64,000 nucleotides of DNA from Deltaproteobacteria bacterium (GTDB taxonomy: Bacteria; Myxococcota; JACPTQ01), in NCBI GenBank assembly GCA_016192705.1, contig JACPTQ010000060.1, forward strand, positions 1 through 64,000, written 5' to 3'. Positions 1 to 53,129 of the stretch are shown here, piece after piece (the first letter of the stretch is position 1; every line of letters starts with the position of its first letter). A program made the translations under genes and the position numbers. The notes under the pieces were generated by a model. The model did no database searches. It was not told where the DNA came from and saw only the letters and a list, made by a program, of their open reading frames with translations.

Positions 1-3000
1 CCCCCGCGTGCATCAGCGCATAGTAAAGGTACCCAGTTTCCCATTGGTAATGCGCCGGAAATCGCGTCCCGCCCTGCCACACGTCCCAAAGGTTGCTTGT
101 CGCCGAATGCTGGATGGCAACGGCTCCTCGCGATGGACGCCCGGGGTAAAGCAACCGCTCAGCCGCCGCGAGCCGCTGGTTCGCCGCAGCGATCGGGGCG
201 TACGCGCCTATCGACTCGCTCCACGCATCGTCGTCAAAGAGTGAGGGGCCATAGTTGTACCACTCGACCGCCTTCGCACCGTGCCCGACGAGCCCCAAAA
301 GCCGGTAACTCGCGCCATCCTCAACGCCCGAGTACGCAAGGGTTTGGCCCACAATGTAACCGCCAAACTCTTGTTGCCCAAGCGATGCGGCCGAGCGCAT
401 GGCGTTTGCGTAGTACGACCAGATCGACGCCCGCTGGTCGGTCATCCAGTCCTCGGTCCACAGGGTCCCAGCGTTCGCGCGCCCGTGCTCGAACCAATCA
501 AAGTTCGCCTTGCCGCTTGTGTACCAGTTGCTCACCCACTCGAGCGACACCGCGTTCCAGTTGACATACGGCAGGGCGTTTGGAAAACGCGCGTGAATCG
601 CTTGACTCGTTTGGCGCACCCCGTTCGTCGCCGCTTCGACGAAGTAACGGACCGTGTGGTAGGCGAGGTGATGCCGCGCAAGGTCGGCCGCGTTCGTGAC
701 GGTGCTCATGACGCCCGCATCCGACGGCGGCGCAACCGTCGGGTCGGTTGGGTCGAGCGGAAAGATGTCGTGCCAATTCGCCGCGCCAAAGTACGTCGGA
801 TCGTTGACCTGATGCTGCAGATAGGTGCGAAACTTTGCGAGCAGCTCGGGGGTCGACGCGACCTCGCGCACCCAACTGAACGCGGTTGGGTCAGCCGCGG
901 GCAAGTCAAACTGCGGCTCGTCGCCGAGCATGAAGAGGCGAACATCTTCCGGTTGGCCGCCATACGCCCCTGCATAAGTCGTCGCGCTTCCGCTCGCCCA
1001 GCACGCGAGCTGCGACGGCGTCGCCTGAAAGTCGAAGTAAGTCATCGCGCGTGAGCTGTCGATGCCGCATGCCGCGCCGCCCGCCTGCGCGGGGAAATAG
1101 TTGCCCGCATGCAGGTTCTGCTTGAGGCCGTTCGCCGCGAGCCGCTCGTTGATGGTCGCAACCGGCAGGCCGGTAAAGTAGTTGGTGAGCGTCACGTTAC
1201 AACCCAGATCGCTGATGGTTCCCAGAAGGGCATCGAGCATCGGCACGCTGTCTTGGTTACCGATGATTGCGCCGCACGAAACCGGAAAGAGCTGCGGCCG
1301 CGTGTTCACGGATGGTCCCGCGTCGCGCGCTTCAGCCGCGATCCCGCGAAGACGCTCGGCGTGGCCCGTCAACGTTTCAAAGGCGTCGAGCAGCGTGGAA
1401 GCGCCGCCCACCCCGGCCGGCGTTCGGTAGGCGTAACCCGGCAGAACGAAGGAGACGATTGTTCCTTGAAGGGTGTCGGTCACGGACTTAAGGACGTCGA
1501 CGCCGCCCCCCGCGTTGCCGCGGCCGAGATCGATGCGAACGGTGAGGCGGCTGAATCCGCCGACGCCCGCAACATTCTGGACCGCGCCAACGTTCACCAA
1601 GAACACAAAGAGGCGACCTTTGTCTTTGAGGATGGGACCCGTTTGCCGATTCCAATAAAAGGCGTCAAGCGAGATCCACCCCGACGGCGCGCCACCCACG
1701 GTTAATGGGCTCGCCGGGAACCGGTTGACGGTAACCGGCATGAGCTGCAGCGTCTGATCGGCATCGGTGAAATCGGCGCTGTAGGTCGTGCCCGCCGCTG
1801 CGGGTTGGTTGTTGATATCCGCCGCGATGAGTGAGACCCGGACACGCCAGTCTTTGTCGAAGTTTGGGCGACGCGTTCGCACACCCCCCGCGAGGGTCGC
1901 GAGCGCCGCGGCGCCATTGTCGCTCGCCGCGACCATGAGTCCCAACCGCGCACCGACGTCGGTCGCTGAAACGACTTGCGGCGCGCCCGCGAGCTGGCCT
2001 TGCGTGTCGACGGACGCGCGCGCGATCGACATGCCCTCGCGCATCGGGCCGAGGTCTGCGTCGAGGGCGATCGACGGAACGGCGAGATAAACCGCTCCCG
2101 TCGCGCTATACGTAACGTCGGACATCGTCACGGCCGCCGAAAACGCTGGCGCCGACGCCGGCTCGCCCGACGCCTGCAGCGACCAAACGGCAAGCTGACA
2201 AAACTCGGGTATTGCCGGAGTCGCATCCGTGCGCAGGGGTGGCCTCACGTAGATCGCATTTGCGCCAAGCGCGAATCGAAGCCCAACCCCGGGCGCGTAG
2301 CATCCATCCGGCGACGTAAACGAAAACGATCGCACGACGGGCGCGCCTCGCGCGTCCAGTTGCGGCGCGCCACTCGCATCAAGATCAACGACGCGAAGCC
2401 GCGCCGAAGCTACTTCCGTACCGAAGTACAGCTTTGACCCGCGCACCGCGAGGTCCGTAACATAGGCGCCCGGCGCGACCGCGAAAAACGCAGCGGCCCC
2501 GGTCGGTTCACCGGTCGCTGGATTCAGCGTGTGCCGGTAAACGCCCGTCCACCCGCTCGTGTAGAGGGCGGGCTGCGTCGGATGCCGTGCAATCGACCAA
2601 GCCCACGTCGAACCAAACGACGCCGGGTAGTTGCGCGGTGCCCCCGTCGGGACCAACGCAGAATCGAGGTCGTAAACGGTGAGAAGATTCGCCGTGACCG
2701 GCTGGCTGTAACGAATGCTCGCGTAGAGCTTACGTTTCGTGGCGTCGACAACAAGGCCGGTCACTGACGCCGTAAACGCTGTCGCTGGCTGAACGGCTGG
2801 GTCGAGCACACGAAAGCGCTGCACCGCCGCAACACCCGTCGCTGTCATCGTTCCTACGAGGAGCGCCGCCTTTTCGTCCTCCGCAGCCGCGCCGATGTAG
2901 ACGCGCTGCCCGGTCGGGTCGAGCGCCATCGACGAAATCTTGTTCAAGCTGATCGCCTCCATGGCGATCGTCGCCTGCACCGGGGCTCCGGTCGGGCTCT

Positions 3001-3148
3001 CTAGACTCGCGCCGTAGGGTGCGGTCGTCGCCGCCATGTTTCGTCCGCCCGATTCGTCGCGCACGCCCGCGCAGCCGAGGAACGCGTCACCCAACGCCAC
3101 CAAGACGATCGTCAAAGCGAGATGGCCACGTTTGTTCATTTTGTTCAT
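1..3148 (-). CDS. Large secreted lipoprotein, propeller-like N-terminus and possible glycoside-hydrolase-like C-terminus (partial)
   Basis: An open frame runs without a stop from ATG 3148 to the window edge, about 1049 residues, and its 3' end lies outside. A strong GGGAGGA Shine-Dalgarno lies just upstream of the ATG. The N-terminus (MNKMNKRGHLALTIVLVALG) ends in a lipobox FLGC, so export and lipidation are likely. Residues of about 30-350 hold repeated motifs such as LDPTGQRVYIG and LYASIRYS, as in beta-propellers. Near residue 739 there is MLGDEPQ and near 894 LWTEDWM, two acidic sites in a region that reads like a TIM-barrel hydrolase (YLYYALMHAG near the edge). A GH42-like role is only a guess; no family was confidently recognised. 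The gene is divergent from the gp19-like pair. Confidence 0.75.
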   Translation of the reverse strand, partial: MNKMNKRGHLALTIVLVALGDAFLGCAGVRDESGGRNMAATTAPYGASLESPTGAPVQATIAMEAISLNKISSMALDPTGQRVYIGAAAEDEKAALLVGTMTATGVAAVQRFRVLDPAVQPATAFTASVTGLVVDATKRKLYASIRYSQPVTANLLTVYDLDSALVPTGAPRNYPASFGSTWAWSIARHPTQPALYTSGWTGVYRHTLNPATGEPTGAAAFFAVAPGAYVTDLAVRGSKLYFGTEVASARLRVVDLDASGAPQLDARGAPVVRSFSFTSPDGCYAPGVGLRFALGANAIYVRPPLRTDATPAIPEFCQLAVWSLQASGEPASAPAFSAAVTMSDVTYSATGAVYLAVPSIALDADLGPMREGMSIARASVDTQGQLAGAPQVVSATDVGARLGLMVAASDNGAAALATLAGGVRTRRPNFDKDWRVRVSLIAADINNQPAAAGTTYSADFTDADQTLQLMPVTVNRFPASPLTVGGAPSGWISLDAFYWNRQTGPILKDKGRLFVFLVNVGAVQNVAGVGGFSRLTVRIDLGRGNAGGGVDVLKSVTDTLQGTIVSFVLPGYAYRTPAGVGGASTLLDAFETLTGHAERLRGIAAEARDAGPSVNTRPQLFPVSCGAIIGNQDSVPMLDALLGTISDLGCNVTLTNYFTGLPVATINERLAANGLKQNLHAGNYFPAQAGGAACGIDSSRAMTYFDFQATPSQLACWASGSATTYAGAYGGQPEDVRLFMLGDEPQFDLPAADPTAFSWVREVASTPELLAKFRTYLQHQVNDPTYFGAANWHDIFPLDPTDPTVAPPSDAGVMSTVTNAADLARHHLAYHTVRYFVEAATNGVRQTSQAIHARFPNALPYVNWNAVSLEWVSNWYTSGKANFDWFEHGRANAGTLWTEDWMTDQRASIWSYYANAMRSAASLGQQEFGGYIVGQTLAYSGVEDGASYRLLGLVGHGAKAVEWYNYGPSLFDDDAWSESIGAYAPIAAANQRLAAAERLLYPGRPSRGAVAIQHSATSNLWDVWQGGTRFPAHYQWETGYLYYALMHAG

Positions 3149-3414
3149 GTCGTCCTCCCTCGTCCTCACTCAAATGCAGCGCGGAGGCCACGAAAATCGC
3201 CAAAAAGTTCGCGTATCCTACATGTCGCATCCGATCGGGCTGCGATCGTGTTCATCAGGCTTTGATCCCCCGGCCGGCGCTCGGTTCAGCGTCAGCGGAA
3301 CGCGTTACGTCGTCAGGTGGGCCACGCGAAGTCGCCGCCACCGTGCGGTTGACCGTGCCACCCCGTCAGGACTCTAATCCGAAGGCTTTTTGGAATACGC
3401 CGAAGGAGGCCTTC

Positions 3415-3945
3415 ATGAAGAACTGGTTGGTCAAGATGGTGGCGTTCGCGGTCCCGCTTGGGTTTGCGACGTTCCACGCGGAGAGGACGCCCGCCGCGGG
3501 CAAGGGGAGCTTTCGCGTCAAATGGGACGGGAAGGTCATCCCGGGCGTTGTGAGCGTGAGCGCGCTTCGCCGAAAAACCGAGGTCGTTGAGAACCGCATG
3601 GGCGGTGAGTCGAACCAACCGCGTCGGTCGCCAGGCAAAACGGAGTTCGCGCCGCTTGTCATCAAGCGCACGCGTTCAGCCGACGTTGAATTCGAACGTT
3701 GGGCAAACAAGGTCTGGAATCTGACCGGTGGACTCGGCGCCGAGGTTTCGCTGCGCGACTTTCGCAAAGACCTCCTCATTGAGCTCGTGAGCGACACCGG
3801 GCGCGTGACGACGGTTTTCAAAGTTTATCGCGCGTGGCCAAGCGAATACGTCGCAGCGGGCGATCTCAGCGCGGGTGATCCGTCGGGCGCGGAGACGCTG
3901 ATTCTCGTGTACGAGGGTTTCGATCGAGACAACGAGGTCCGATGA
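3415..3945 (+). CDS. Phage tail-tube (T4 gp19/TIGR02241-like) protein with N-terminal export signal
   Basis: 176 residues starting at ATG 3415 behind GGAGG. After a basic and hydrophobic N-terminus (MKNWLVKMVAFAVPLGFATF, with a cleavage-like AxA region near residue 25) comes the gp19 fold pattern: FRVKWDGKVIPGVVSVSAL, a basic-Gly-rich loop, FAPLVIKRTRS, FERWANKVWNL, DFRKDLLIEL, a Trp-Pro-Ser segment (AWPSEYV) and ETLILVYEGFD. In phages and contractile injection systems such proteins polymerise in the cytoplasm into the inner tube. A Sec-type signal is not expected there. It overlaps the next, paralogous gene by ATGA, so the two are probably co-translated and may form hetero-oligomers. No sheath, baseplate, spike or AAA ATPase gene is adjacent. 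Confidence 0.8.
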   Translation: MKNWLVKMVAFAVPLGFATFHAERTPAAGKGSFRVKWDGKVIPGVVSVSALRRKTEVVENRMGGESNQPRRSPGKTEFAPLVIKRTRSADVEFERWANKVWNLTGGLGAEVSLRDFRKDLLIELVSDTGRVTTVFKVYRAWPSEYVAAGDLSAGDPSGAETLILVYEGFDRDNEVR

Positions 3946-4535
3946 TGAAGACGAATGCGAAACGGAAGACGGCTGCTTGGGCGAGCTTTGCATTGTTGTC
4001 GGCCACGGTCACGATCGCGGGCGCGGCCGATTTTTCGGTGAACGCGACGCGATTCGACCCGTACAAGAATTTCAAGTTTCGCGTGAAGTGGGATGGGAAG
4101 TACGTCTCGGGCGTCGCAAAGGTGAGTGGGCTTTATCGCGAGACGGCGGTCACATCGATTCGCAACGTTCTGAGCGGACGCACCACGAAGACGCCTGGCG
4201 CAACGACGTATCAACCGATCGTCATCGAGCGCGGGCGGACGCACGACACGGCGTTCGAGGATTGGGCGAACAAGGTTTTCAACTTGGGCTCGACCGGCGC
4301 ATCGCCAACCGCGGACTATCGCAAGGACATGATGATCGAACTTTACAATGAGGCCGGGCAGATGGCGATGGCGTGGCGCGTGAAGAGCTGTTGGCCGTCG
4401 AAATACAGCCCGCTCAAAGAGTTCAATGCGAATCGCACCGAGGTCGCGGTCGAGACGATTGTTCTTGAACACGACGGCTGGGTACGCGACACCGGCGTCA
4501 ACGAGCCAGCGGAGCCAAGCTTCACGCGGCCTTGA
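3942..4535 (+). CDS. Second phage tail-tube (gp19-like) paralogue with export signal
   Basis: 197 residues from ATG 3942, overlapping the previous stop (ATGATGA); ATG 3945 is an equally good start. The N-terminus has basic residues then a hydrophobic run ending in IAGAA, a plausible signal peptide. The body matches the gp19/TIGR02241 pattern better than its neighbour: KFRVKWDGKYVSGVAKVSGL, TPGATTYQPIVIERG, FEDWANKVFNLG, DYRKDMMIELYNEAG, CWPSKYSPLKEFNA and VETIVLEHDGW. The usual length of cytoplasmic tube proteins is about 145-170 residues, so the extra length is mainly the leader. It contains a single Cys just before the WPSKY motif. Its role in an exported location is unknown. Confidence 0.82.
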   Translation: MMKTNAKRKTAAWASFALLSATVTIAGAADFSVNATRFDPYKNFKFRVKWDGKYVSGVAKVSGLYRETAVTSIRNVLSGRTTKTPGATTYQPIVIERGRTHDTAFEDWANKVFNLGSTGASPTADYRKDMMIELYNEAGQMAMAWRVKSCWPSKYSPLKEFNANRTEVAVETIVLEHDGWVRDTGVNEPAEPSFTRP

Positions 4536-4627: not shown

Positions 4628-5641
4628 ATGAAAAAACCTTCGGTATCAGCACATCGCCTCGACGCCGCCATCGAGGCCGGCCTTGCGCGCTTCGCTATGC
4701 TGCAGCTCGGTCGCCTCGTGCCGACGCCCCTCGCCCGCGCGCGCACCGTGACCGCCGCGAAAGTTGCGAGCCGGTTCGTCGAGGAAACCACGCCGCTCGC
4801 TGAACGCGTCGCCGCACACAACCCTCGCGCCATCGCCGATTTCGACGCGCTCGTGGCTGAAGCCATTCGAGAGGCACGCGACGTTTCGACGGACGGTCCG
4901 CTCGCCCTCCTCGCCGCGCTGGATCGTCGACTCTACGAGAATGGCGACGAGCTTCTCGACGATCCCGCGTTTTCGATGGCTGAGCGCGTGCACACGCTCG
5001 ACAAGCTCGACCGCTTCAACGCCCACCTCGGAAGTTACGCGAAGTGGGGCGCACTCGTCGAAACGCTCGTCGTCAGCGCGGAGCAAGCGGGCCACGCGCC
5101 CGTTCGCGTCGTCGATCTCGCGGCCGGGCACGGCGGATTCGCCATCGCGCTCAAGCAGCGACTCGGCCGGCGCATCGCCATCACCGCAACCGACACCGCC
5201 GACGAATACCTCGAACTCGGCCGAAGCCGGGCGCGCGCGAGCGGAGCCGATATCGCATTCGCCGTGCAGGACGCGACGAACCTAACGAATTTCGCCGAAG
5301 GCGACGTCGACGTCTTCCTCTGCACGCAATCGCTTCACCACTTTCCACCTGGAATGGTTGCGCGCCTATTCGCCGAGGCCGCGCGCCGCGCCACAACCGG
5401 CGTTTCGTTCATCGACGGTGAGCGCGGCTGGGTGCCGCTTGTCACCGCCGTCCTGCTCATGACCGCGTACGGGCGCACGTGGCCGCTCATCCACGACACC
5501 TACGTTTCGCTCCGTCGCATGTACACCCTCGAAGAGCTTCGCCTCATCGGTGCACTCGCCCCCGCGGTGCCCGACCGCATTTCCATTGCGACCGGCACGC
5601 TCCGCCCTGGATTTATCTACTTACAGGCGACGATTTCTTGA
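4628..5641 (+). CDS. Class I SAM-dependent methyltransferase
   Basis: 337 residues. The SAM-binding motif I is [11 protein letters not shown] (about residues 161-171), followed by an acidic residue at the end of the next strand ([11 protein letters not shown]) and the QDATNL region. LHHFPPGM is a motif common in this superfamily after strand 4. The N-terminal 150 residues are helical and presumably contribute to substrate choice. Near the C-terminus a hydrophobic stretch ([14 protein letters not shown]) may contact membrane or a lipid substrate. The substrate cannot be told from sequence. It is convergent with glyQ and the 3' ends overlap by 29 bp. It follows the gp19-like pair by about 90 bp on the same strand. 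Confidence 0.85.
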
Positions 5642-14997: not shown

Positions 14998-15545
14998 CCC
15001 TGATCCCCGGATAGCGGAGAAGACTTCAGTGGGGCGGTCGGGGTTGGGCTCGCTCCGGCTCGCGGAAGTCCTCGGGTCTGACATTAGATGTGAGTCTGCG
15101 CGAAATGAATCAAACATCGTGAGAGCGGCAATTCCACGCCCCATCGGCACCTCATCCCCTGCGGACGCGAGCCTTCGCTTGCCCAATCCCCGCCCGCCCA
15201 ACCAGAAACTGGCCGTTTTCCTGGAACGGCGGTTAAGAGACTTGGGGGTCGATCGATCGTTAGCCGACACCCAGCGGGTGAACTCTTCGAACCGCCCGCA
15301 AGCCCCAAAATACGTCCCCGGAAAGCGGTCCGCCCGGATTCGCGTAGGGTCGGCAGGGGCTCGCATAGGCGCGCCTCCGCAGGGTCTGCATCGTGATATC
15401 GCGCGGGATTGCCGAGTTTTCGCATGCCTCTGCTAAGCGGCTCAATCGCGCGAGTGAGTTCAGACCCGAGGACGTCGGCGCGCCGAAGCGGCACCTGCCG
15501 ACCCTACGTACGGAAGAGACTTGGCCGCTTATCCGAGGATCGTGG
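14998..15545. mobile_element. Non-autonomous transposable element, copy 1 (about 85-bp TIRs, 8-bp TSD)
   Basis: The ends are inverted repeats: CCCTGATCCCCGGATAGCGG at the left, and CCACGATCCTCGGATAAGCGG as the reverse complement of the right. Similarity continues for about 85 bp to GTCCTCGGGTCTGA. The element is flanked by direct repeats GATGCCAT at 14990-14997 and 15546-15553, a convincing 8-bp target duplication. The interior (about 380 bp) has no conserved open frame that survives in both copies, so it looks non-coding. It matches 32132-32843 over its whole length. No transposase is present. The rest of this gene-free stretch (15554-15648) holds only the leader of the next gene. Confidence 0.9.
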
Positions 15546-15648
15546 GATGCCATTTGACATTTCGCCGCGCATACATACCCTGATGGTGATCCGCCTCAGC
15601 GATGGGTTGATGCGGGGGCGCGGCCTTAACGAAATGGAGGGTGGGCTT

Positions 15649-16608
15649 ATGTTCATTCGTCGTCTTTCAACTCTCGTCGTCTTCATGTTGGCTCTCGCGG
15701 CGTGCAAGAAGGAAGAAAAAGTCACGTACGTTTCGCCGGCGCTGGCGCCCCGGCCCGCACCCACGGTGCAAGGATCGACCGGTCTCAGCCAAGAGTCGTT
15801 CGATTTGCAAACGGCGATTGCACTACTTCGCACGAACAAAGTTAAGGATGCGCAGTCGCTCGAGGCCGCCATCAACGAAGGCGGGTCCGGCATCAACAAC
15901 GTCGACATCGATGGCGACGGGAAAACCGACTACGTTGCGATTCAGGAAACGGTTTCAGGCGCCGAGCGGCACCTGTCGTTCATGGCGTGCCCGTCGAGTA
16001 AACAGGGCGAGCCGGTCAAAATTGCGAGCGTGACCGTCCGTGACGCTGGCCAGCAGGTGTATGTCGGCGGCGGTTACACAAGCCTCGTGAGTGGGTACGA
16101 CAGCGTCTACTACTCGTATTACGTGCCGCGCATGTCGCTCGGCGACGCGCTGTTTCTCTCGTGGATGCTGAGTCCGCGCCCGCTGTGGGTTTATCGACCG
16201 TATGCGTACTACGGGGGTTGGGCACCGCGCCCAGTGCTCGCAGCGGCGACGTTGCGAACGACCCGCACAACGTACACGACGCAAACGCGCGTCGCGCCGG
16301 TTGCGAAGGCGGCTCCGCCCGCGAACTACGCATCGACCGCCGCCGTGAAGGCGCCGTCGCGGTTTGCGGCGCCGAAGGCTGGGACGGGGCTTTCGGGCAC
16401 CGCGGGCAAAATGCGGGACTATCGCGTCGACACGGGATCGAAGCCTTCCGGAACGGCGTTTGGGGCGCGACCTGCGGCGCCAAGCGCGGTGTCGAGGCCG
16501 AGCTCGTTTGGCGGTTCGTCGGCCGCGCGCCCGTCGACGTCGTGGGGCGGCGGAAGTCGTACGAGCTTCGGCGGGAGTCGCACGGGCTATTCGTCACGGC
16601 GTCGATAA
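15649..16608 (+). CDS. Predicted lipoprotein with calcium-binding-like loop and Ser/Gly/Arg-rich tail
   Basis: 319 residues from ATG 15649 with GGAGG at 15636-15640. The leader MFIRRLSTLVVFMLALAACK has the lipobox LAAC. Residues of about 75-90 contain VDIDGDGKTDYVA, a short DxDxDG calcium-loop-like motif. A hydrophobic, aromatic centre (YYSYYVPRMSLGDALFLSWML) gives way to a low-complexity Ala/Pro/Ser/Gly tail ending in repeated FGGS-type motifs. No family recognised. The next gene follows after 34 bp, so they probably form an operon. Confidence 0.78.
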   Translation: MFIRRLSTLVVFMLALAACKKEEKVTYVSPALAPRPAPTVQGSTGLSQESFDLQTAIALLRTNKVKDAQSLEAAINEGGSGINNVDIDGDGKTDYVAIQETVSGAERHLSFMACPSSKQGEPVKIASVTVRDAGQQVYVGGGYTSLVSGYDSVYYSYYVPRMSLGDALFLSWMLSPRPLWVYRPYAYYGGWAPRPVLAAATLRTTRTTYTTQTRVAPVAKAAPPANYASTAAVKAPSRFAAPKAGTGLSGTAGKMRDYRVDTGSKPSGTAFGARPAAPSAVSRPSSFGGSSAARPSTSWGGGSRTSFGGSRTGYSSRRR

Positions 16609-16642
16609 TCTCTGAATACCAGATAGAAAGAGAGGAATCGCT

Positions 16643-17734
16643 ATGCAGACAACCGGATCAACGACCCAGCCTGCGCGCGCGCGCCCCGACTGGGAAGAGG
16701 AGCTGATTCAAATTTCCGTTCTCTATCTCGCTCTCGAGTGTGGGCAAAAAATGCCGCTCGTCGGCGAGGGCGCGAGCGACTTGCAGCTCATTGAGAGCGA
16801 GCTTGCAACGATGCAGGCCAAGGGTCTCATCGGGATTGAGGGACAGGCGTGGATTGTCACGAAAGAGGGTCGTGCGATGCTCGGCCAGGTCGTGAAGATG
16901 TGCGACCAGCTCATGAAGTTCGAGATCTTTGGCGGCGTTCGCCTCACGCGAGAGCTGACGCCCGATGAGCGCCTCGATGACGATCCGCTTCAGTGCCGCG
17001 ACCACGTCTACGATCCGCGATTCGCCGCACCCGGGGAAGAAGACAGAGAGGCCAAGGACTTGCGCTTGGCGATGATCACGTTTTTGACGGAGCAGATGTC
17101 CGAAGCGCTCGGTGGGCAAGAGGTCGACCCGCGTCGCCTCGTGTTTTTGCAAAAGCTTTCATCCGGTCGGTTTCCGCGCCAAGACTTTTGGTTCCAGCTG
17201 CGACTTGGGACCTATTTCCGCGACGTCGAGAAAATCGCGCAGTCGGCGTATCAATGGAGGCAAATCGATCCATCGAGCGAAGAAAACTCGATGAACGCGA
17301 TGCGCATTCTGTACACCGCGGGGATGCTCGAACAGCGCAAGCGCGATGGAAACGAATGCGGCGGCTGCGGCATTCCGCTCGCGGTGTTTGAGCTGGGCGC
17401 CGCGCAAAACAAACAAGAGTTGACGAAGTGTCCAAATCCGGATTGCGGGGCCGACTACAATCCACCGAAGGCGCTCGTCGGGTTCGCGTGCCCAGCGTGC
17501 AACCGCGACATCCATGATGGCCAGACGCGGTGCGGCTGCGGCGCGATTATCGACCGCAGCCTGATGCCTGGGACGGTCCAGACGGAGACCGTTGCGCATA
17601 CGGAGACCGTGTATGAAACGGTTTGGGGCCACGGCTACGGGTATTACGGCTACGTTCCGTACGGCTACTACGATCCGTGGGATCCGTTCGTTGACGTTCT
17701 CGCGTTCGGATGCCTCTGCGCCGTCTTGTGGTGA
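16643..17734 (+). CDS. Winged-helix-like and zinc-ribbon protein of unknown function
   Basis: 363 residues from ATG 16643. The N-terminal 80 residues look like a winged-helix unit (IESELATMQAKGLIGIEGQAWIVTKEG). After a helical middle come paired Cys knuckles: CGGCGIP with CPNPDCGADY, then CPACNRDI with CGCGAII, as in double zinc ribbons. The C-terminus is very Tyr/Gly-rich (WGHGYGYYGYVPYGYYDPW) and ends in a short hydrophobic Cys-containing tail. There is no signal peptide. It may sense or bind a protein or nucleic acid; function is unknown. Confidence 0.8.
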   Translation: MQTTGSTTQPARARPDWEEELIQISVLYLALECGQKMPLVGEGASDLQLIESELATMQAKGLIGIEGQAWIVTKEGRAMLGQVVKMCDQLMKFEIFGGVRLTRELTPDERLDDDPLQCRDHVYDPRFAAPGEEDREAKDLRLAMITFLTEQMSEALGGQEVDPRRLVFLQKLSSGRFPRQDFWFQLRLGTYFRDVEKIAQSAYQWRQIDPSSEENSMNAMRILYTAGMLEQRKRDGNECGGCGIPLAVFELGAAQNKQELTKCPNPDCGADYNPPKALVGFACPACNRDIHDGQTRCGCGAIIDRSLMPGTVQTETVAHTETVYETVWGHGYGYYGYVPYGYYDPWDPFVDVLAFGCLCAVLW

Positions 17735-32843: not shown

Positions 32844-34442
32844 TTACTTGTGGATCTTCCAAACGCGGCTGTCGTAGCCGAAAAAAAGATGCGTCGCGTC
32901 GGTCGCATAGAGCGGGATGACGCCAGTCGAGAAGATTCGAATTGTGGCCGGAGAGTTACCAGGCGCTGCGCGGATGAGCCCGTTAATCCCAGAGTAGATA
33001 AACGTACCGTCAAAAACGATCGGCTGGTTTGTCGAGGTGATAATCGTCGCGACGGGCACGCCGGCATCCACAACGCCCGCATCAGCACCCGCGTCCACTC
33101 CCGCATCAGCGCCGACGCCCGCGTCGACGCGCGGCGGGATGGGTGTCTCGTAGAGCCAGCCGTTGGTCCACTCGGTCCAAAAGCACTTCGTCTCGGAGCA
33201 CGCGAGACTTCCGCGCCCCGTCGTCGAGCCGACGGAGATGAGCGTCGTGATTTCGCCGAGGTCCTTGGTGAGTCGCAGAATGGCAGCGCTGTCGGTTCGC
33301 AACACGAAAAGCGAATCGCTCGTCATCGCGATCGTGTCGGCCGTGAGCGTCCCGAGATTGGGCGTCGTTGATGCGTCAGCGCCAAAATCGTTTTTCGATA
33401 CACGGTGAATAACCCAAGGGCCCGCTTGGAGTTGCACCATCGAATAAACACCGGCGTCATCAACGGCGACGGCGTGTACGTACAGAGTTGTCGCAGGGGT
33501 CGGGACGATTGTCGCGCCACCACCATCCGTCGCAACGTCGCGCACAAAGAGCCCGTCGCTCGTTCCGGCATCGTCCGAATCGCTCACGTAGTAAACGCGC
33601 GTTCCGTCGACGGCAAACGGAAGCGTGCGATCGGGCCGCGCCACGTGCTGCATGATCATCTCGACGCCGCCCGCATCGAATGGCGCACCCGCATCTGGGT
33701 CCGCGCCCGCATCGACGCCCGCATCGACACCCGCATCGGCCCCGGCGTCCGCCCCCGCATCCGCGACGACGCTCATCGGCACGCCCGCATCGCCAATGAA
33801 CAACCGGTAAATCCCGCCGCGCCCCGCGTACGGCCCCGAATTCGGCCGCGCCGACAAATAAAGGTAATCGCCCGAAACGCGACCGCTATAAACCGACCCG
33901 AAATCCTGGTTGTTCACCTTTGCTGGCATATAGACCTGGTCGGCAACCGACGCCGTCGCCGTCGTGACCGGCGCTTCGTACTGCGTGATCGCCGCGCCCG
34001 CGTCGAACGTGAGTTCGCCCTTAAGGCCCGTGTCCGAAAAAACATTTGGGTTTCGCTCGAACGTGACGTTGAACACGACGGGACCCATTTCGCGCGGCAA
34101 CCAATCGATGATTCGCGACGCGGCGCCAATGACGCTGTCGTACGAACCGCCCTCGATCGTCACCGTTGGACTCCCGAAGCCCGCCGGGATCGGAAACACG
34201 ACGCGCAGGTCTTGCAACTCGGTCGCCGAATTGTTTCGCAGCGTCACTTGGTACGACAGCTTTACGTTGTGATCATTTTTCGAAGGGTCCCACGGGTACG
34301 GCGATCCCGCGTCCCGTGTCGACTTGATCGAAAACGTGAGCGCCGTGCCCGCATCGCTCACCGAACCACCGCCCGATGAGTCCCGCCCCGAGCACGCCGC
34401 AAGAAGCAAGAGACTGGCCGAAACCGACTCGCGCGCCGTCAT
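32844..34442 (-). CDS. Predicted lipoprotein with propeller-like C-terminus and Asp-Ala-Gly linkers
   Basis: 532 residues from ATG 34442, which overlaps the stop of the upstream gene as ATGA. The leader has lipobox LAAC. A beta-rich domain (YQVTLRNNSATELQDLRVVFPIP, a DUF11-like or conserved-repeat-like Ig fold) is followed by two Asp-Ala-Gly linkers (about residues 222-245 and 440-465). Between and after them lie propeller-like blades (GTRVYYVSDSDD, TLYVHAVAVDDAG, TDSLFVLR-type). The protein ends KIHK, right at the mobile-element target duplication. Function unknown. Confidence 0.8.
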   Translation of the reverse strand: MTARESVSASLLLLAACSGRDSSGGGSVSDAGTALTFSIKSTRDAGSPYPWDPSKNDHNVKLSYQVTLRNNSATELQDLRVVFPIPAGFGSPTVTIEGGSYDSVIGAASRIIDWLPREMGPVVFNVTFERNPNVFSDTGLKGELTFDAGAAITQYEAPVTTATASVADQVYMPAKVNNQDFGSVYSGRVSGDYLYLSARPNSGPYAGRGGIYRLFIGDAGVPMSVVADAGADAGADAGVDAGVDAGADPDAGAPFDAGGVEMIMQHVARPDRTLPFAVDGTRVYYVSDSDDAGTSDGLFVRDVATDGGGATIVPTPATTLYVHAVAVDDAGVYSMVQLQAGPWVIHRVSKNDFGADASTTPNLGTLTADTIAMTSDSLFVLRTDSAAILRLTKDLGEITTLISVGSTTGRGSLACSETKCFWTEWTNGWLYETPIPPRVDAGVGADAGVDAGADAGVVDAGVPVATIITSTNQPIVFDGTFIYSGINGLIRAAPGNSPATIRIFSTGVIPLYATDATHLFFGYDSRVWKIHK

Positions 34443-36817
34443 GGCGTCGGCACCTCGACGGTAAAGAACCGCACCGTCGACCACCCAACCGTCCCGCCCG
34501 TCCCGCTCATCACAACAGCGGGGCCGCTGATGTTCTGCCGATTTCCCGAGTTCGACCAGCACGGTGTCCCGTTGAAAACCTGCTTCACGCAAACGGGGCA
34601 CTTGAGATCCGGGTTAATCCTGAAAGTGATGGTGTGCGTGTTCCCGTCGGGCAGCGCAACGCCGACACCCGACGGCACAACCGGCTGCGGCCCGCCCCAG
34701 TAACAGAAATCGTAGATCCCACTGCTCCCGCCGCTCGTGACTTCGTCGCCGCTGTCGAGCCGCGCCGACACCGCGTAGCTCATCCAAACCGACGCCGTCC
34801 CGCAGACGCCGCCGTACCCCGCGCGCGCCGTCACCGTCACCGTCTCGCCTGGCCGCACCGACGACGGCACTGAGAACGCCCCCGTGCACCCCGACGTGAA
34901 CGCGCCCGACCCGACGACGCCGCCGGTGTTCGTGCACTCGGTCGACACCTCAGCCTTCGCTTCGCCCTTCCCGATTTCCTGCTTCACGGTCTTGCCCTTC
35001 GCGTCTTGCGTCACGACGTACACCTTCACTTTGATCGTGTCGGTTCCGCCCGGGCCGATGTCTCCCGTCTTCACCGTGTAGTCGGCCTCGCCCTTCGTGA
35101 TGGTGAACGAGTTTTTGTAAGTCGAATTGACCGATGTCGTGAGGTCGCCCCACGCAGCGGTGTTCGAGAACTCGTATTCAAGATTCGTCGAGAGCGTTTG
35201 CCCAGCGTTTTTCACCGTCACGACAAACGTCGTCTTCTCGCCGCACGTTAGTTTCGCGATGCCCGGCGTGATGAGAACTTTGGGCGCGCGGACGAGCACT
35301 TCCCAATCTTCGACGCTGTTCGCCGACGCGCCGTCGCTCGCCACCTTCGCGTAATCGATGACCGCCATCATCTTGTCGACGATGTCGATCGCGAAGAGCA
35401 GCATCTTGCTGAACGCGAGCGAGAACTTCCACGCCTCTTCGTTGCCGACGAGCTTTATCATCACGAGAATGCGGAACTGCTCGAGGAACCATTCGCGAAA
35501 CGACCCGTTGTTTTGCATGACCGACCCGAATTTCCAGATCGCGCCCCAGATGTCGCCCGCCGTGATGAGGTTGCCGACTTCGATGAGGCCGCCGTTGAAC
35601 GCTTGGTTCGTGATCTCTTTCACAAACTCGCCGAAAAACGACGAGCCGAACAAGTCGCCCAGAAACTTGAAGTTCATCAGCGATAAAAACGCGGGCAAGT
35701 AAAGGTCGGCGAGCATCGACTTGATTTCGATGAACCTCCGCTGATCGTCTTGACGCTTTGTGAGTGAAACCGACGTTGGCTGGCCGTACCCGACCGCGCG
35801 AATGCGATAGCGAATCACGTCGTCCTCGGAGTCGACGTTCCCGAGACCGACTGGCCCGTAATATTTCGGCGTGTAGGCGCCGTTGTCGTAGATGACGTCG
35901 ACGAGCGATCCGAAGACGCCGTTCAGGCCGTTCACAGGGTCGAGCTCGAACGAATAATCTTCTACGTACGTTTCGCCGACCTTGCGATCGATGAAGACGT
36001 ACGCGCGCCGCCGCCACTCGTTCATGAAGGTGATTTGATTGACGTCGGCGTTCGACTGCCCGGCTTGATCGCCGATCAGCACGGTGATGCCGCTCTTCGA
36101 TTGCGTTGGGTCGACGAGAACAAGCGGTTGCGAGAGCGCGCCCGTGCCGGTGCCCGCGTCGGCGCCCGCATCGGGGGTTCCAAGCGGCACGATGCGCTTA
36201 AGGATGCCGCCAACCGTCGCGGCAAACTCCGTTTTGTCGGCGGCGCTCGCCGTCGCGAAGTAGGTCGGATTCGCCGCGAGCTTTTGGTCGAGGAACGCCG
36301 CGAGCGAGGCGATTTCGCCGCCCGCGTCGAGAACTTTGTTCGCGACCGAGTCCCACGCGGACGGCGGAAGAAACGGCGCACCCGTATAGAGGAAAAGGAA
36401 AAACGCGGCCGTGCTGGCCGTCGAAATCGTCGCCCCCGCGTCGGGAATCGCCCACCCCACGAGCACCGGATTCCCAGCGTCGTCTTCGACGATAACGCCT
36501 TGGCGACCCGGGCCCGCGCCCATGACCGTGAATCCGCCGTCGCCATCAGGCGTCGATGAACCGAGTTGCGCGACGACGCGAAGCGACGCAACACCGCCAT
36601 CGAAGCCAAGCGGGAGCACGATTTGGCCCGTCAGCGTCGCCGCGTCCATGTCGGTAAAGCCCGCGTCACCCGCATCTGCGCTCGCATCGGGCCCGGTCAC
36701 ACGGTTCGTCCCCGTGTTGGTTGCTCCGCCGTCACCCCCCTTGCAAGCCCAAGCACCCGCGAAAAATAAAAAGACGCCGACGGAACATCGGCGCCGATTA
36801 AGCGCACCTCGATTCAT
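34439..36817 (-). CDS. Large predicted lipoprotein of unknown function
   Basis: 792 residues from ATG 36817 behind a G-rich site. The lipobox is AWAC followed by Gly/Asp-Ala linker. The middle (about 280-520) has several hydrophobic helices (FLGDLFGSSFFGEFVKEITNQAF, MLLFAIDIVDKMMAVIDYA). The C-terminal third is Ig-like, with ITPGIAKLTCGEKTTFVVTVKNAGQT and a final Cys-rich domain (CPVCVKQVFNGTPCW). It is translationally coupled to the next gene, so the two probably act together at the envelope. Confidence 0.78.
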   Translation of the reverse strand: MNRGALNRRRCSVGVFLFFAGAWACKGGDGGATNTGTNRVTGPDASADAGDAGFTDMDAATLTGQIVLPLGFDGGVASLRVVAQLGSSTPDGDGGFTVMGAGPGRQGVIVEDDAGNPVLVGWAIPDAGATISTASTAAFFLFLYTGAPFLPPSAWDSVANKVLDAGGEIASLAAFLDQKLAANPTYFATASAADKTEFAATVGGILKRIVPLGTPDAGADAGTGTGALSQPLVLVDPTQSKSGITVLIGDQAGQSNADVNQITFMNEWRRRAYVFIDRKVGETYVEDYSFELDPVNGLNGVFGSLVDVIYDNGAYTPKYYGPVGLGNVDSEDDVIRYRIRAVGYGQPTSVSLTKRQDDQRRFIEIKSMLADLYLPAFLSLMNFKFLGDLFGSSFFGEFVKEITNQAFNGGLIEVGNLITAGDIWGAIWKFGSVMQNNGSFREWFLEQFRILVMIKLVGNEEAWKFSLAFSKMLLFAIDIVDKMMAVIDYAKVASDGASANSVEDWEVLVRAPKVLITPGIAKLTCGEKTTFVVTVKNAGQTLSTNLEYEFSNTAAWGDLTTSVNSTYKNSFTITKGEADYTVKTGDIGPGGTDTIKVKVYVVTQDAKGKTVKQEIGKGEAKAEVSTECTNTGGVVGSGAFTSGCTGAFSVPSSVRPGETVTVTARAGYGGVCGTASVWMSYAVSARLDSGDEVTSGGSSGIYDFCYWGGPQPVVPSGVGVALPDGNTHTITFRINPDLKCPVCVKQVFNGTPCWSNSGNRQNISGPAVVMSGTGGTVGWSTVRFFTVEVPTP

Positions 36818-37153
36818 CAAGAGACCCCCCTTCCCAAATCCGCCACGGTCCACACCACAATTGTGCATCTCCACTTTTGACTTGTCGAGAAACGCACTTT
36901 TCTGCGCGCACGACGATCCAGTTCTGATCGCGCGTTGTCGGCTTCTGATCACACGCGCCCACACCTTGTGCGAATTTCCTATGGTTTTTCTTGGCACCGC
37001 CGCCTGCTTTATCGCCGTCCCGCAACCGCTGAATTTCCGCCGCTATCTGCGCGAAAGCCGGTGGCTTGAGCGCGCGGCGGAAATGGGGAGCGCCTGTTTA
37101 CAGAGCGCGAACCCCACCGCTGATGGACACGGTTGAAAACGAGGAGAGGCAAA
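36818..37153. other. 336-bp divergent intergenic region holding palindromic element C
   Basis: It separates two divergent lipoprotein genes, so both promoters should lie here. The element-C hairpin occupies 37033-37084, with its tag to about 37115. The first 200 bp show no open frame with coding character. I could not assign -35/-10 boxes with confidence. Confidence 0.6.
37033..37084 (+). repeat. Palindromic element C
   Basis: A perfect 11-bp outer stem, ATTTCCGCCGC / GCGGCGGAAAT, encloses a shorter inner stem centred on AAAGCC GGT GGCTT. It is followed by the tag GGGGAGCGCCTG and then CGCGAACCCC, as in element D. It ends about 70 bp before the GTG of the Cys-rich lipoprotein, so it may lie in the 5' leader of that mRNA. 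Confidence 0.85.
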
Positions 37154-39605: not shown

Positions 39606-41057
39606 TTACTTCGCGTAGCCGTCGTACCGGGCCATCCAGTAAGCGATGAGGTAATCGACGCCAGGGCGCTCAACCCACGGCTGCGCGCAGTTTTCGTTGA
39701 TCGTCGTTGGCGAACGTTGCCACGCGTAGTCTTCGCGCGGGCGCTTGTCGATGTTCAGCGCCGACGATGCGACGTTGTCGCAAAACGTTTTCTCGGCGAT
39801 GTCGGGGTTCGAAACCGCGTCGCGACGAAGCGGCGCGCTCGGGAAGAGCGTGAGTTGCTTCGACGTGTCGTCAGAGACCGACGCAAGGCCCGACTTGCCC
39901 GAGCCGTTCAAGTAAAAAAGGTCGAAGAGCGCGTTCTTGTCGGCGCCGACGCCTGAGAAATTGAAGCCGTTACCCGACCACAGGCGATCGAGAATCGCGC
40001 GATACGCCGTGCGGCGCGTCGAATCGGTGTCGATGCGAATGAGCGTCGAAAGCGGCATCGCGACGATGTTGAATCGGTAGTAGTCGTCGCGATCGCAAAC
40101 CGTGGTCAGCGTCAAGTCGGCCGCGCAAAGCCACAGCTGCGCGCGATCGAGCCAGTTGTACCAGCCGCTCACCTTCTCATCGAACGCGTCCTTGAACCGC
40201 GATTCGCCGCTCATGTGATACGCCGTGCGCAAATAGCTGAGCGACATGATCGCGCGGTCAAACGAAATCGTCCCAGGGTCGAAGCTCAGGGTCGTTCCGT
40301 CGGCGTTCGTGATCTCCCAGTTGTTGTCCATGAGCGTGTCGACAAACTCGACAACGTCGCCGCGAATCGTCGCGCGCGTCGCGCTGTCCTCGTAGAGGTC
40401 GTACGCCGTCGCAAGCCCAAACATCCAACCCGCGTATTGGTCGCGCGAAATGTCGCCCATGAACTTGTAACCCGCGTACGCGCCGCTTCCGCTGTGAACG
40501 CCGTTCGCCGATTCGAGATAGCAGTAATCCCGCGTGCCGTTTGTTTTCTTTCCGCACGTCGTCGACGGCGGTTCGTAGCCGCGCGTGATGAGGCCGGGCT
40601 TTCCGGTCACCTTGAGGAGCGTGTGGAGCACGCCGACTTGCGTCTTTAAGAGGTCGCATGCGGCCGACGTCTTTAAAACCGCGCACCGATACGCGAGTGC
40701 CGCCGTGTAAACGCCGGTCCAGATCGCGCCATCGCCTTGCCCCGCGTACGAGCTCACCGTGTCGGTTACCGTGTACGTTTCACTCCCGTCGTCGCAACCC
40801 TTCGTCCCGGCTGAGCGTCCGCTCGTTTTCAAGATCGCGCCCCACACTTGCCCGAACGGCACATGCCGCTTCGTGAGCACGTCGAGATACGCCTCCGCTT
40901 TCGATTCGAGTTTGCTCGTCGCGCTACTCGTCGCCGCCGCATGCACGGCGTCTGCCTCTAGGTCGCGCAGGGCGACGCCCTCGCCACATCGCAGCATCAC
41001 CAACGAATAAGCCGCGAGCAGCCGCGTCGTCGTCCAGCTCCAGTCTCTTTTTTTCAC
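39606..41057 (-). CDS. Exported helical (alpha/alpha-toroid-like) protein of unknown function
   Basis: 483 residues from GTG 41057 with AAGGAGGA. The leader (VKKRDWSWTTTRLLAAYSLVMLRCGEG) may be a lipoprotein signal, but its VMLRC is a poor lipobox. The rest consists of helices with recurring aromatic and Gly motifs (GAIWTGVYTAALAYR, DQYAGWMFGLATAYDLYED, AIMSLSYLRTAYHM, WYNWLDRAQLWLC, YRFNIVAMPLS), as in six-hairpin glycosidases or epimerases. Specific function unknown. Confidence 0.72.
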   Translation of the reverse strand: MKKRDWSWTTTRLLAAYSLVMLRCGEGVALRDLEADAVHAAATSSATSKLESKAEAYLDVLTKRHVPFGQVWGAILKTSGRSAGTKGCDDGSETYTVTDTVSSYAGQGDGAIWTGVYTAALAYRCAVLKTSAACDLLKTQVGVLHTLLKVTGKPGLITRGYEPPSTTCGKKTNGTRDYCYLESANGVHSGSGAYAGYKFMGDISRDQYAGWMFGLATAYDLYEDSATRATIRGDVVEFVDTLMDNNWEITNADGTTLSFDPGTISFDRAIMSLSYLRTAYHMSGESRFKDAFDEKVSGWYNWLDRAQLWLCAADLTLTTVCDRDDYYRFNIVAMPLSTLIRIDTDSTRRTAYRAILDRLWSGNGFNFSGVGADKNALFDLFYLNGSGKSGLASVSDDTSKQLTLFPSAPLRRDAVSNPDIAEKTFCDNVASSALNIDKRPREDYAWQRSPTTINENCAQPWVERPGVDYLIAYWMARYDGYAK

Positions 41058-41343
41058 AACGTCCTCCTTGCTGATTTCTCTTGGCGACAACTCCAGAATG
41101 CAGTCGCCGCGCCACGCGCGCGGACTCGACAAACCCAAGAGTTGCGCACACAGGCCCACCGTGCGTGACAAGGCGCCTTGACGTTTGGGGACTCCTTTTT
41201 CCAAGGGAGCGTGTTGAAACGAATAAGACTTCCAAAAGTGAGAGCGCGAAAACCCGCGTGAATCTAAGCCGATTTAAGGGAACGGCCCTTGCTTCGCCTT
41301 ATCGGATGCCGCATCCTCAAATTGATTGACGGGGAGTGTGAAC

Positions 41344-43821
41344 ATGACGATGAGAATTCGATGGTTTCTACCGGTTCTAACGCTCGGCGCAATGGTGGCG
41401 ATGCCAGCAAGCCCCGCGGCTGCGGGTGTTGGTTGGGCCGGCACACAACAACCTGACGCCGGGCGAATCGCAGCGATTCGAAGCCAGCGCGCGGCGCTCC
41501 AAGCGATTTACAACCAGACGAATGCGCTTCGCGCGGAGGCGACCCGGTGTCGGCTGCCGGATGCGATAACAATACGTCTGAGCGCCGCTGAAGAGTGCAA
41601 CCCGAAACCCAAAGACGGTTCACCCGAAGCGCTCCTCGCTCGTAACAAGCGCGAAGAGACTTGCCTCGCGAACATGATTCCACTCGCGTCGCAGCAGCTC
41701 GTCAACGAACGCGCCACGTATCGACGCGCCTCGACCGTCACCAAGATCAAGTGCCGTGGGCTCGTCGCGACGGTGCTCGATGAAGCGTGCGACGCCTTCC
41801 CAAACGCGTGCGAGCTCATGATGGAAGGGAAAGCGTGCTACGACGCCGCGAGCGCCGCGAAATCGGCCGGCCTCAAGACGTTCGGTAAGACCGCGCGCTT
41901 TTTCACGTCGTCGCTCAACCGGCTTTCGCTCGCATCGATCAAGAATCTCTTTCGCCAAATGGAATCCGCCGCGCGCGACGTTCGCACCGCGATCACAGGC
42001 TGCTGGGCTTTCTTTAAGCACGCGGCGACGGAGGCTGTTGCAGCGGTTAAAAACTGGTTCTGCGGCGAAGCCGGCTCGACGGGTGCGGTCATCTGCGAGC
42101 GGATTCGAGAGGGTCGTGCGTGCTACCTTCGTATGAAAGGGGCGCTCGGCGGCGTCCCGATGAAAGCCGCGACTCAAATTCGGCGCTTGTCGATTCTCGA
42201 AACGGCAAATCCGTTTTCAATCGCTCGCTCTGTTTACGATTCGTTCGGTTCGCCAGAAATGAGCGCCGCGGTTTCGGAGTGCGCGAAGTGGGCGAAGCAA
42301 ACGATCGTCGCCGTCGCGGGGCACGTGTGTAAAAAAAGCGAGGGCTGCGCGGCGTTGCTCGAAGCGCTTGAGCGTGAAGGGATCACGGTCGACAACTGGC
42401 GCTCACGAAAACTCGACATCGCGCGGATTGCGATGCGGACCGCCTTTCGAAAGGAAGGCAGCGTCACGATCAAGCTCGGCGCGAACATCGCGGTTCCCAT
42501 TTTCAGATTCATCGGGGTTATGGGTGAGGGAGAGCTGTCGGTTACCGTCACGCACGCGGGGGACGACGTTTACGACGCACGATTCGCCGTCAAGAGAACC
42601 GGCGAAGTCACGGCCGGTTACGAGAAGGGGCAGACGGGCGCGTCGATCGGCATCGGCGGCAGCATCGAAGACGGGCGCACGTTCCGAATCAACGCAGCCG
42701 ACCCGAACGACTGGCGCCTCCTCCTCATGCTCGCGGCCGACTCCGCCGTGCGCGCACTCGCGCGGAGCGCCGTGGGACCACTCGCGCAGATTCCGGCAAT
42801 GCCCGACGTCATCGGCTCAATCGAAAAGTTGCTCATCGGCGAGCCGATCAACGCGAATGCGATCATCGCGAAGCTCGGGCGCGAATCGAGTTGCAAACTG
42901 TGCGGCATCCTCGACGGCAGTTTGTCGTTCGGCTTTGGGAAGCCAGACAAAGGTGTCCAATTCTCCGCGGGCGGTCGCGGCGAGCTCTGCTTTGGCGCGA
43001 CCCACAGCCGAAGTCCCGAGCTGGGGAAGTCGGCGCTCGATCTCGCGGTCGAGACCAACGTCACGATCATGGCCGGTGCGGAACTCGGCAAGGATCTCGT
43101 CGCGTCTGTCTCCAAGGGCCTCGACCAATTCGTTGCGTCCGCGAAAGGGACGCTGGCCAAGATTGGCGCGTGGTGGGCGGCGCACAACGCAAACGACCAG
43201 ATCGAAGGCACGCTCGATCGATTGGGCCAGGCGCAGTTGGCCGTGTCGGGGGCGTTGGGCAAATGGATAGAAAACCTGACGGGACCGACCGACCGACTCC
43301 TTGCGTGCGGTGAGCTCGCGAAAGAGTTCGTCACCAAATGGGCGAATCCAAGCGGCGCGCTGACTTTCTCGTGGTCGCTCGGTTACGTCGTGGGGAAGAC
43401 CCAGCCCAGCGGCGTCACCATCACCCTCTCAACGAGCGAACCCATTCGCGCCGTCGACGCCATCGATGCGAGCCTGCTCGGGTTCGGACCGATTGGGGCC
43501 TTTGCGCTCTTCCTAAAAAATGGGCGAGACGCTGCGCCCATCGATTGGCGCGTGCGCATCGATTCGGGGCGAGTCGCAGGGACGGGTGTTGCGCAGGACG
43601 GCGTTCGACTGACCGGGAAAGTTGAAGCGACAAGGTCGTACACGCAGGGGATTGGGAGATGGACGCTTGGCGACTTGCGCAACGCACCGCTCACGGGAAC
43701 GCTCGGTGTGTATCGCGACGTTCGCGATGGGAAGTGCGCGCCCAATGGCGAAGGCCGCTCCCCGTGTGACCGCCGTGAGACGAGCGGCAAAAACGCTCCA
43801 CCCAACACGGCATCGCGCTAA
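41344..43821 (+). CDS. Large secreted protein of unknown function
   Basis: 825 residues from ATG 41344 (GGGGAG at 41331). The signal peptide (MTMRIRWFLPVLTLGAMVAM) ends near SPAAAG. The N-terminal half is helical with spaced cysteines (CRLPDA, EECN, EETCL, IKCRG, EACDAFPNACELM, KACYD), probably disulfide-linked. The C-terminal half is beta-rich, with ANIAVPIFRFIGVMGEGELSV and GSLSFGFGKPDKGVQFSAGG. The latter resembles barrel or scaffold strands. The gene is convergent with the propeller lipoprotein (4 bp gap). Confidence 0.75.
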   Translation: MTMRIRWFLPVLTLGAMVAMPASPAAAGVGWAGTQQPDAGRIAAIRSQRAALQAIYNQTNALRAEATRCRLPDAITIRLSAAEECNPKPKDGSPEALLARNKREETCLANMIPLASQQLVNERATYRRASTVTKIKCRGLVATVLDEACDAFPNACELMMEGKACYDAASAAKSAGLKTFGKTARFFTSSLNRLSLASIKNLFRQMESAARDVRTAITGCWAFFKHAATEAVAAVKNWFCGEAGSTGAVICERIREGRACYLRMKGALGGVPMKAATQIRRLSILETANPFSIARSVYDSFGSPEMSAAVSECAKWAKQTIVAVAGHVCKKSEGCAALLEALEREGITVDNWRSRKLDIARIAMRTAFRKEGSVTIKLGANIAVPIFRFIGVMGEGELSVTVTHAGDDVYDARFAVKRTGEVTAGYEKGQTGASIGIGGSIEDGRTFRINAADPNDWRLLLMLAADSAVRALARSAVGPLAQIPAMPDVIGSIEKLLIGEPINANAIIAKLGRESSCKLCGILDGSLSFGFGKPDKGVQFSAGGRGELCFGATHSRSPELGKSALDLAVETNVTIMAGAELGKDLVASVSKGLDQFVASAKGTLAKIGAWWAAHNANDQIEGTLDRLGQAQLAVSGALGKWIENLTGPTDRLLACGELAKEFVTKWANPSGALTFSWSLGYVVGKTQPSGVTITLSTSEPIRAVDAIDASLLGFGPIGAFALFLKNGRDAAPIDWRVRIDSGRVAGTGVAQDGVRLTGKVEATRSYTQGIGRWTLGDLRNAPLTGTLGVYRDVRDGKCAPNGEGRSPCDRRETSGKNAPPNTASR

Positions 43822-49921: not shown

Positions 49922-49933
49922 AGCGATCCCCGC

Positions 49934-50638: not shown

Positions 50639-50687
50639 TACTGACCCCCTTTCAAAAACATACAATCTACCACATAATCAGACATCT

Positions 50688-51092: not shown

Positions 51093-51244
51093 GCAGCAAG
51101 ACCGAAGTGAATAATACGTTTACGAATCTCTGGAAACCGATGCGCGGCAACCCCCAGCTGGTTGAATAACACATCCCTTCGATCGTAGGATTCGAGCGTC
51201 GCGTCGAAGACGACGTGTCATCAACTCGTTTACGGGAGGACGTC

Positions 51245-53029: not shown

Positions 53030-53129
53030 ACTCTTCCCGTTCTTTTCCAACCGACCACTTCCGGCGCTCGCAGGTCCGCGCTTGATCTTGCGCGGCTGAA
53101 CGCGCGAAAGTGCGCGCTGGAGGTGCGTG

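Follow-up and report, generated by a model that had tools for sequence, protein, structure and literature searches.

Here we describe two overlapping genes, designated P1 and P2, each of which encodes a protein with the sequence and modelled fold of the main inner-tube protein (tube1) of eCIS-type clusters, preceded by a leader that is predicted to direct Sec export. The genes lie in the window, as we call the whole 64,000-nucleotide stretch of DNA that was analysed, and none of the other contractile-machine parts looked for, the sheath included, was found with them. The cytoplasm is normally where the tube proteins of injection machines are produced and put together; an export-bound tube protein without a contractile machine would be a syringe part with a separate life. 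The explanation that we favour, and consider somewhat probable, is that P1 and P2 are an eCIS tube1 pair uncoupled from injection, exported by Sec and probably ring-forming, with a periplasmic or extracellular location.

The overlapping tube1 gene pair and its relatives

The preliminary description of this DNA had reported two overlapping gp19-like tube genes at 3415-4535, and these coordinates proved right, with matches to PF06841 and TIGR02241 and an ATGA overlap between the genes. The pair and its immediate neighbours comprise the following features:

2..3169, minus strand: lipoprotein-like protein, 1056 aa, in divergent orientation and reaching the contig end
3405..3409, plus strand: GGAGG, ribosome-binding-like, 5 nt 5' of the P1 start (sequence reading)
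3415..3945, plus strand: P1, predicted exported tube1-like protein, 176 aa (PF06841 E 3.1e-25; tube1 HMM 171 bits; AF2 and Foldseek)
3415..3495, plus strand: P1 leader MKNWLVKMVAFAVPLGFATFHAERTPA, signal-peptide-like, with h-region MVAFAVPLGFATF and net +2 ahead of the h-region
3508..3921, plus strand: gp19 tube domain of P1 (PF06841 genome search)
3934..3937, plus strand: GAGG, ribosome-binding-like, within the P1 3' end and preceding the P2 start (sequence reading)
3942..3945, plus strand: ATGA, a 4-nt overlap of P2 start and P1 stop, of the translational-coupling type
3942..4535, plus strand: P2, predicted exported tube1-like protein, 197 aa (PF06841 E 6.8e-37; tube1 HMM 231 bits, covering residue 29 to the C-terminus)
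3942..4025, plus strand: P2 leader MMKTNAKRKTAAWASFALLSATVTIAGA, residues 1-28, with predicted cleavage A28|A29
4065..4481, plus strand: gp19 tube domain of P2 (PF06841 genome search)
4628..5641, plus strand: SAM-dependent methyltransferase, downstream of P2 after a 92-nt gap

P1 and P2 belong to the CIS/gp19 tube-protein family. PF06841 was the sole family returned by hmmscan for either protein, both exceeded the cut-off of the family profile TIGR02241 in a full-length match, and the pair accounted for all PF06841 matches in the genome (5.21 Mb, 88 contigs, 96.65% complete). Since the GC content of the two genes (0.59-0.66) is near that of the window (0.62), which also carries GlyQ and glutaminyl/glutamyl-tRNA synthetase genes, the region looks like chromosome and not like a contaminant. 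A promoter and terminator scan found none; the methyltransferase gene is possibly co-transcribed with the pair. The divergent lipoprotein-like protein matched no Pfam or NCBIfam family, and by eye its N-terminal repeats appear beta-propeller-like and its C-terminal part glycosidase-like. Elsewhere in the window, long open reading frames without a Pfam match at 1e-5 are found at 15409-17734 (+), 32844-36997 (-), 39606-43821 and 48598-53398, some of which may be wrong-frame.

Structure modelling of both proteins yielded the tube fold. With a 20-row alignment, AlphaFold2 gave a mean pLDDT of 72.7 for P1 and 72.7 for P2, with cores mostly at 75-93 (mostly 80-93 in P1) and low values confined to the leaders, the arms and some loops. 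The best Foldseek matches of these models were 7b5h_AN for P2 (E 7.9e-9) and 7adz_1a for P1 (E 1.0e-9), and the top matches for both were all CIS tubes, at a probability of 1.00.

Both proteins had been assigned in the preliminary description to the phage/contractile inner-tube family; the family match stands for each of them, but their closest kin are eCIS tube1 proteins and not phage proteins. A scan of GTDB genome contigs returned 583 relatives, the best 80 of which are 53-59% identical to P2 from about its residue 29 to its end and begin, with M-AQFSVN, exactly where residue 29 of P2 lies. From this coincidence we infer that P2 is an eCIS tube1 in which a leader has replaced the initiator Met. 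These tube1 relatives belong to eCIS-type clusters in bacteria and archaea, with a sheath gene in the locus for 76 of the best 80; commonly the sheath gene is followed in turn by tube1, tube2, a 436-aa protein, an AAA ATPase and DUF4157-like proteins. P1 also falls within the tube1 subfamily, being 43-53% identical to eCIS tube1 and scoring 171 bits against the tube1 HMM versus 231 bits for P2. It is without the arm AQFSVN..DPYKN and the tail EPxEPSFTEP; the C-terminus of P2 is the canonical C-terminal tail.

A phage-tail origin was ruled against by the lack of any tblastn match among 50,697 phage records, and no phage genes were recognised in the window. In IMG/VR no relative of P2 aligned with it ahead of the canonical start at residue 29, and no relatives were returned there for P1 or for P0004, a third tube1 protein of the exported type described below. 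In nearly all of the plasmid rows, too, the relatives begin no earlier than residue 29. Tandem gp19 genes also occur as L124-L126 and like pairs in genus g54, 50-100 nt apart and ~30% identical to P2. These pairs, from Myxococcota-like genomes, were considered as counterparts of P1 and P2 and rejected: they are leaderless and distant and represent a separate contractile-tail type.

Leaders, translation starts and predicted export

The N-terminus of P1 reads MKNWLVKMVAFAVPLGFATFHAERTPA-AGKGSFRVKWDG and that of P2 MMKTNAKRKTAAWASFALLSATVTIAGA-ADFSVNATRFDPYKNFKFRVKWDG. Both leaders have a positive n-region, a hydrophobic core of 13-14 residues and small residues near the candidate cleavage site. 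The features of a Sec signal (positive n-region, h-region and AxA-type site), as read with our own score, are clear in P2 and P0004, and P1 fits with a c-region that is atypical in containing charged residues. The P1 cleavage site is uncertain, at A27 or slightly later, and its leader stands where the canonical N-terminal arm would be. In P2 the predicted cleavage, AGA|ADFSVN, leaves the canonical N-terminus without Met; the canonical M-A N-terminus is itself expected to lose Met.

The score used for the leaders is a simple rule of our own, combining hydrophobicity with the AxA site, and not SignalP. By this rule as high a score was reached at 51 of the 2634 possible starts in the window for P1 and at 56 of 2634 for P2 (~2%), and by shuffled leaders in 1.6% (P1) and 3.2% (P2) of trials. 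None of 80 relatives scored at all. Additionally, the GC3 of the leader codons, 0.94 in P1 and 0.79 in P2, is of the coding type for this DNA. The export signals proposed in the preliminary description are thus borne out under our rule, and Sec export of both proteins is a well-supported prediction from sequence.

The same description had raised the prospect of translation beginning after the hydrophobic segment. Both upstream ATGs were found to carry a Shine-Dalgarno-like sequence, and no in-frame start 3' of the hydrophobic stretch combined a ribosome-site-like sequence with retention of the whole conserved domain. We therefore hold it very improbable that P1 and P2 are cytoplasmic tube proteins with mis-assigned starts. 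Such a reading would draw on the M-AQFSVN start of the relatives at P2 residue 29 and on a GTG codon at V33 of P2, but P2 has neither Met nor any start codon at position 28/29, the GTG has no Shine-Dalgarno-like sequence and its use would remove ADFS, and P1 has no start between leader and domain. Furthermore, the ribosome sites at the upstream ATGs are good, and the P2 start is coupled to P1 through the ATGA.

Absence of other contractile-machine parts and solitary tube1 genes

The claim that the two genes stand alone was confirmed on a genome-wide scale for the sheath, gp25 and Pvc16_N. No sheath was found in the 96.65%-complete genome, by protein query or by PF17482, and neither gp25 nor Pvc16_N was found across the same genome; in a positive control for Pvc16_N, the target was recovered in 6/6 tube1-bearing genomes of the phylum. 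Within the window, HMMs for the sheath, the Pvc16-like (436-aa) protein and the CIS ATPase gave zero matches, and all three matched at the control locus L054. With the sheath, gp25 and Pvc16_N missing genome-wide and the AAA ATPase missing within the window, P1 and P2 are, as far as tested and for these parts, not part of a functional CIS.

We give scant credence to the view that the pair belongs to an injection system, complete or cryptic, with its remaining genes unassembled or too divergent to find, and that the leader serves for loading, like that of PVC cargo. It is true that the genome is 96.65% complete in 88 contigs and that N-terminal "signal peptides" can serve the loading of CIS cargo (PMC12961389). 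Against this, sheath, gp25 and Pvc16_N are all absent, a CIS normally has its genes in a cluster in which the sheath immediately precedes tube1, and a leader is carried by 0 of about 106 sheath-linked canonical tube proteins.

P1 and P2 have evolved rapidly, with terminal branches of 1.92 and 1.58, respectively, versus a median of 0.056. In the tree, P1, P2 and the proteins of L148 (the P0004 locus), L015 and L029 branch apart from the remaining 49 rows, with moderate support (98/66) and possible long-branch error. Because of the long branches the placement of P1 and P2 is unsure: the AU test rejected neither P1 and P2 as sisters (p 0.50) nor the three exported proteins as a clade (p 0.43). 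Conservation was gauged on a near-invariant set of 99 positions, each at least 97% conserved among 76 CIS tube1 proteins, of which P2 retains 67, P0004 68 and P1 51. That 51 and 67 of the 99 are kept despite such long branches suggests that the fold is under selection and that the CIS constraint is gone. The 15 lost positions shared by P1 and P2 match the chance expectation from 48 and 32 of 99, so no complementarity of losses between them is claimed.

Residues associated with the sheath were sought by comparing 106 sheath-linked with 12 solitary proteins, in canonical numbering from M1 of L005. Because the 12 solitary proteins represent about five lineages, the residue statistics overstate independence and the p-values are a mere guide, with N142 present in 102/106 sheath-linked versus 0/12 solitary proteins, K33 in 106/106 versus 4/12, Q132 in 101/106 versus 2/12, K150 in 100/106 versus 2/12 and K38 in 102/106 versus 4/12. 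N142, which is situated in the loop ahead of the last long strand and is present in the three solved CIS tubes nearest by sequence, is a candidate for a residue required only within the contractile machine. The solitary set can be regarded as a natural experiment, pointing to residues, N142 foremost, that would be needed only inside a sheath. Q147E and a W-P-S motif were also considered as marks of CIS loss and were rejected, as the solved CIS tubes have the same residues; these are probably ancestral.

The accelerated change of P1 and P2, and the fact that no other tested CIS part remains, would also suit a decaying remnant of a lost CIS in which the leaders are chance in-frame extensions. 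We regard this as improbable, for both frames of the locus are intact, have ribosome sites and show coding-type GC3 even in the leaders, P2 reaches the canonical C-terminal tail, and three signal-like leaders are known, one in another phylum, at a chance of ~2% each. Moreover, the sheath beside tube1 would have vanished without trace.

The preliminary description had called for a survey of whether exported gp19 homologues recur, and a third was found, with no adjacent sheath and in another phylum. This protein, P0004 (L148:718-1299, plus strand), is a solitary tube1 of the exported type from G844, a genome of the Bacteroidota sample in the order Rhodothermales. It is 44% identical to P2 and begins with a classic signal peptide, MKIFKGILVFVIAIGFVCTTQEAVA|QPFTVNPHRVDPYKQFKFRVKWDG, whose predicted cleavage, AVA|QPFTVN, falls at most 1 residue from the canonical start. 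Searches of its 14.7-kb contig for a sheath, a Pvc16-like protein and an ATPase gave no match, and the gene is followed there by a MarR regulator and then by an exported DOMON-domain protein.

Sheath-less tube1 loci number 11 in total, the window included, and most of them are leaderless. Four, L008, L015, L029 and L045, are those of the best 80 relatives without a sheath gene, and further sampling (392 and 396 genomes from two more phyla and 114 from one order) yielded G301, G353, G844, G1033, G1034 and G1035. The survey is a sample, in which sheath adjacency was judged for most loci from ~1.5 kb per side and the leader reading left out ~95 weaker phylum matches. In L015 (Planctomycetota) a leaderless tube1 lies at 1039-1569 between a CorA-like and a recG-like gene, and in L029 (Chitinophagales) another follows adenylate kinase at 3782-4306; PF17482 had no match in the whole genomes of either. 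In L045 (Desulfobacteraceae) tube1 follows an amidase-LysM gene, and a sheath gene is present elsewhere in the genome.

Several further arrangements were observed. The amidase-LysM gene of L045 precedes tube1 with a 4-nt overlap region, and at L045:5476-10120 tube1 stands in a same-strand row together with genes for a DUF6345 protein, a 318-aa unknown, the amidase-LysM protein and a coiled-coil membrane protein, which may make up a small separate operon. Leaderless solitary tube1 genes also lie amid housekeeping or unrelated genes at L149:3239-3790 (-) and in L158-L160. In the G353 genome of the Planctomycetota sample, L150:7487-9835 (+), on a contig of 6.9 Mb, is an uninterrupted frame of 783 codons that encodes ABC_membrane, ABC_tran and PF06841 domains, so that the tube1 domain forms the C-terminus of an ABC exporter.

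No common neighbour or partner gene was found among the solitary tube1 loci. The suggestion of a new system, made in the preliminary description, therefore goes too far: with no conserved partner gene, the claim exceeds the evidence.

Proposed function and relation to known systems

In our favoured explanation, P1 and P2 would be CIS-independent descendants of the eCIS main inner-tube protein, at the start of which a Sec signal peptide was gained. They would be translated in coupled fashion and, once exported, mature outside the cytoplasm, mature P2 being a nearly complete canonical tube subunit and P1 one with neither the N-terminal arm nor the C-terminal tail. Hexameric rings would then probably assemble, from P2 by itself or from both proteins, and act in the periplasm or outside the cell as a scaffold, conduit or pore-like ring, free of the residues that fit tube to sheath. 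In contractile systems the outer beta-sheet bears much of the tube-sheath contact (PMC8718954). T6SS tube proteins form hexameric rings in the absence of a baseplate (PMC6088184) and SPP1 gp17.1 self-polymerises (PMC8718954), and by analogy with these precedents ring assembly of P1 and P2 after export is reasonable.

The alternative that carries most weight with us, although we think it unlikely, is that the proteins are exported without forming rings, the tube fold having been put to new use in a periplasmic or surface protein, monomeric or dimeric, that would act in binding or adhesion and no longer have the hexamer interfaces. This would accord with the very long branches of P1 and P2, with the missing arm and tail of P1 and its loss of 48 of the 99 conserved positions, and with the absence of partner genes and the separate evolution of the two proteins. 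However, P2 and P0004 keep the fold together with some two thirds of the near-invariant CIS positions, and the exported proteins hold the canonical N-terminus precisely, which would be unexpected were assembly irrelevant.

Beyond ring formation by P1 and P2, we put forward only tentatively, as a possibility, that they belong to a recurrent class, in which eCIS tube subunits have repeatedly been freed from contractile machines and given signal peptides, in at least two phyla, and form periplasmic or surface-located rings or hollow tubes. If so, such rings or tubes would be conduits, scaffolds or surface layers and a new kind of envelope structure. In the open-licence PMC literature we found no precedent for exported, orphan or domesticated (eCIS) tube proteins.

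Of the known systems, the nearest is eCIS tube1 (PF06841, TIGR02241), for which structures have been solved from All3324 of the Anabaena tCIS (7b5h), AlgoCIS of Algoriphagus (7adz), PVC Pvc1 (6j0b) and AFP Afp1 (6rao). P1 and P2 share its fold, core length and sequence, and P2 retains both the N-terminal arm and the C-terminal tail. Unlike eCIS tube1, they begin with a leader of the Sec type, have lost N142 and other CIS residues and sit on ~30-fold longer branches, and no genes for a sheath, baseplate or ATPase were found for them. T6SS Hcp has the same tube fold and is itself found extracellularly and assembles into free hexamer rings (PMC8718954, PMC6088184), but it has no signal peptide and exits via its own machine, and the relation is remote, with Hcp at Foldseek ranks 25 and below. 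The solitary non-exported tube1 proteins (L015, L029 and others) are likewise without a sheath and share changes at Q132, K150, Q147E and N142 with P1 and P2, whereas they are leaderless, start with M-AQFxVN and have neighbours that vary by locus. A further counterpart is P0004, which has a signal peptide joined near the canonical start on a contig without a sheath, Pvc16-like or ATPase match, and which differs from P1 and P2 in being encoded by a single gene rather than a pair.
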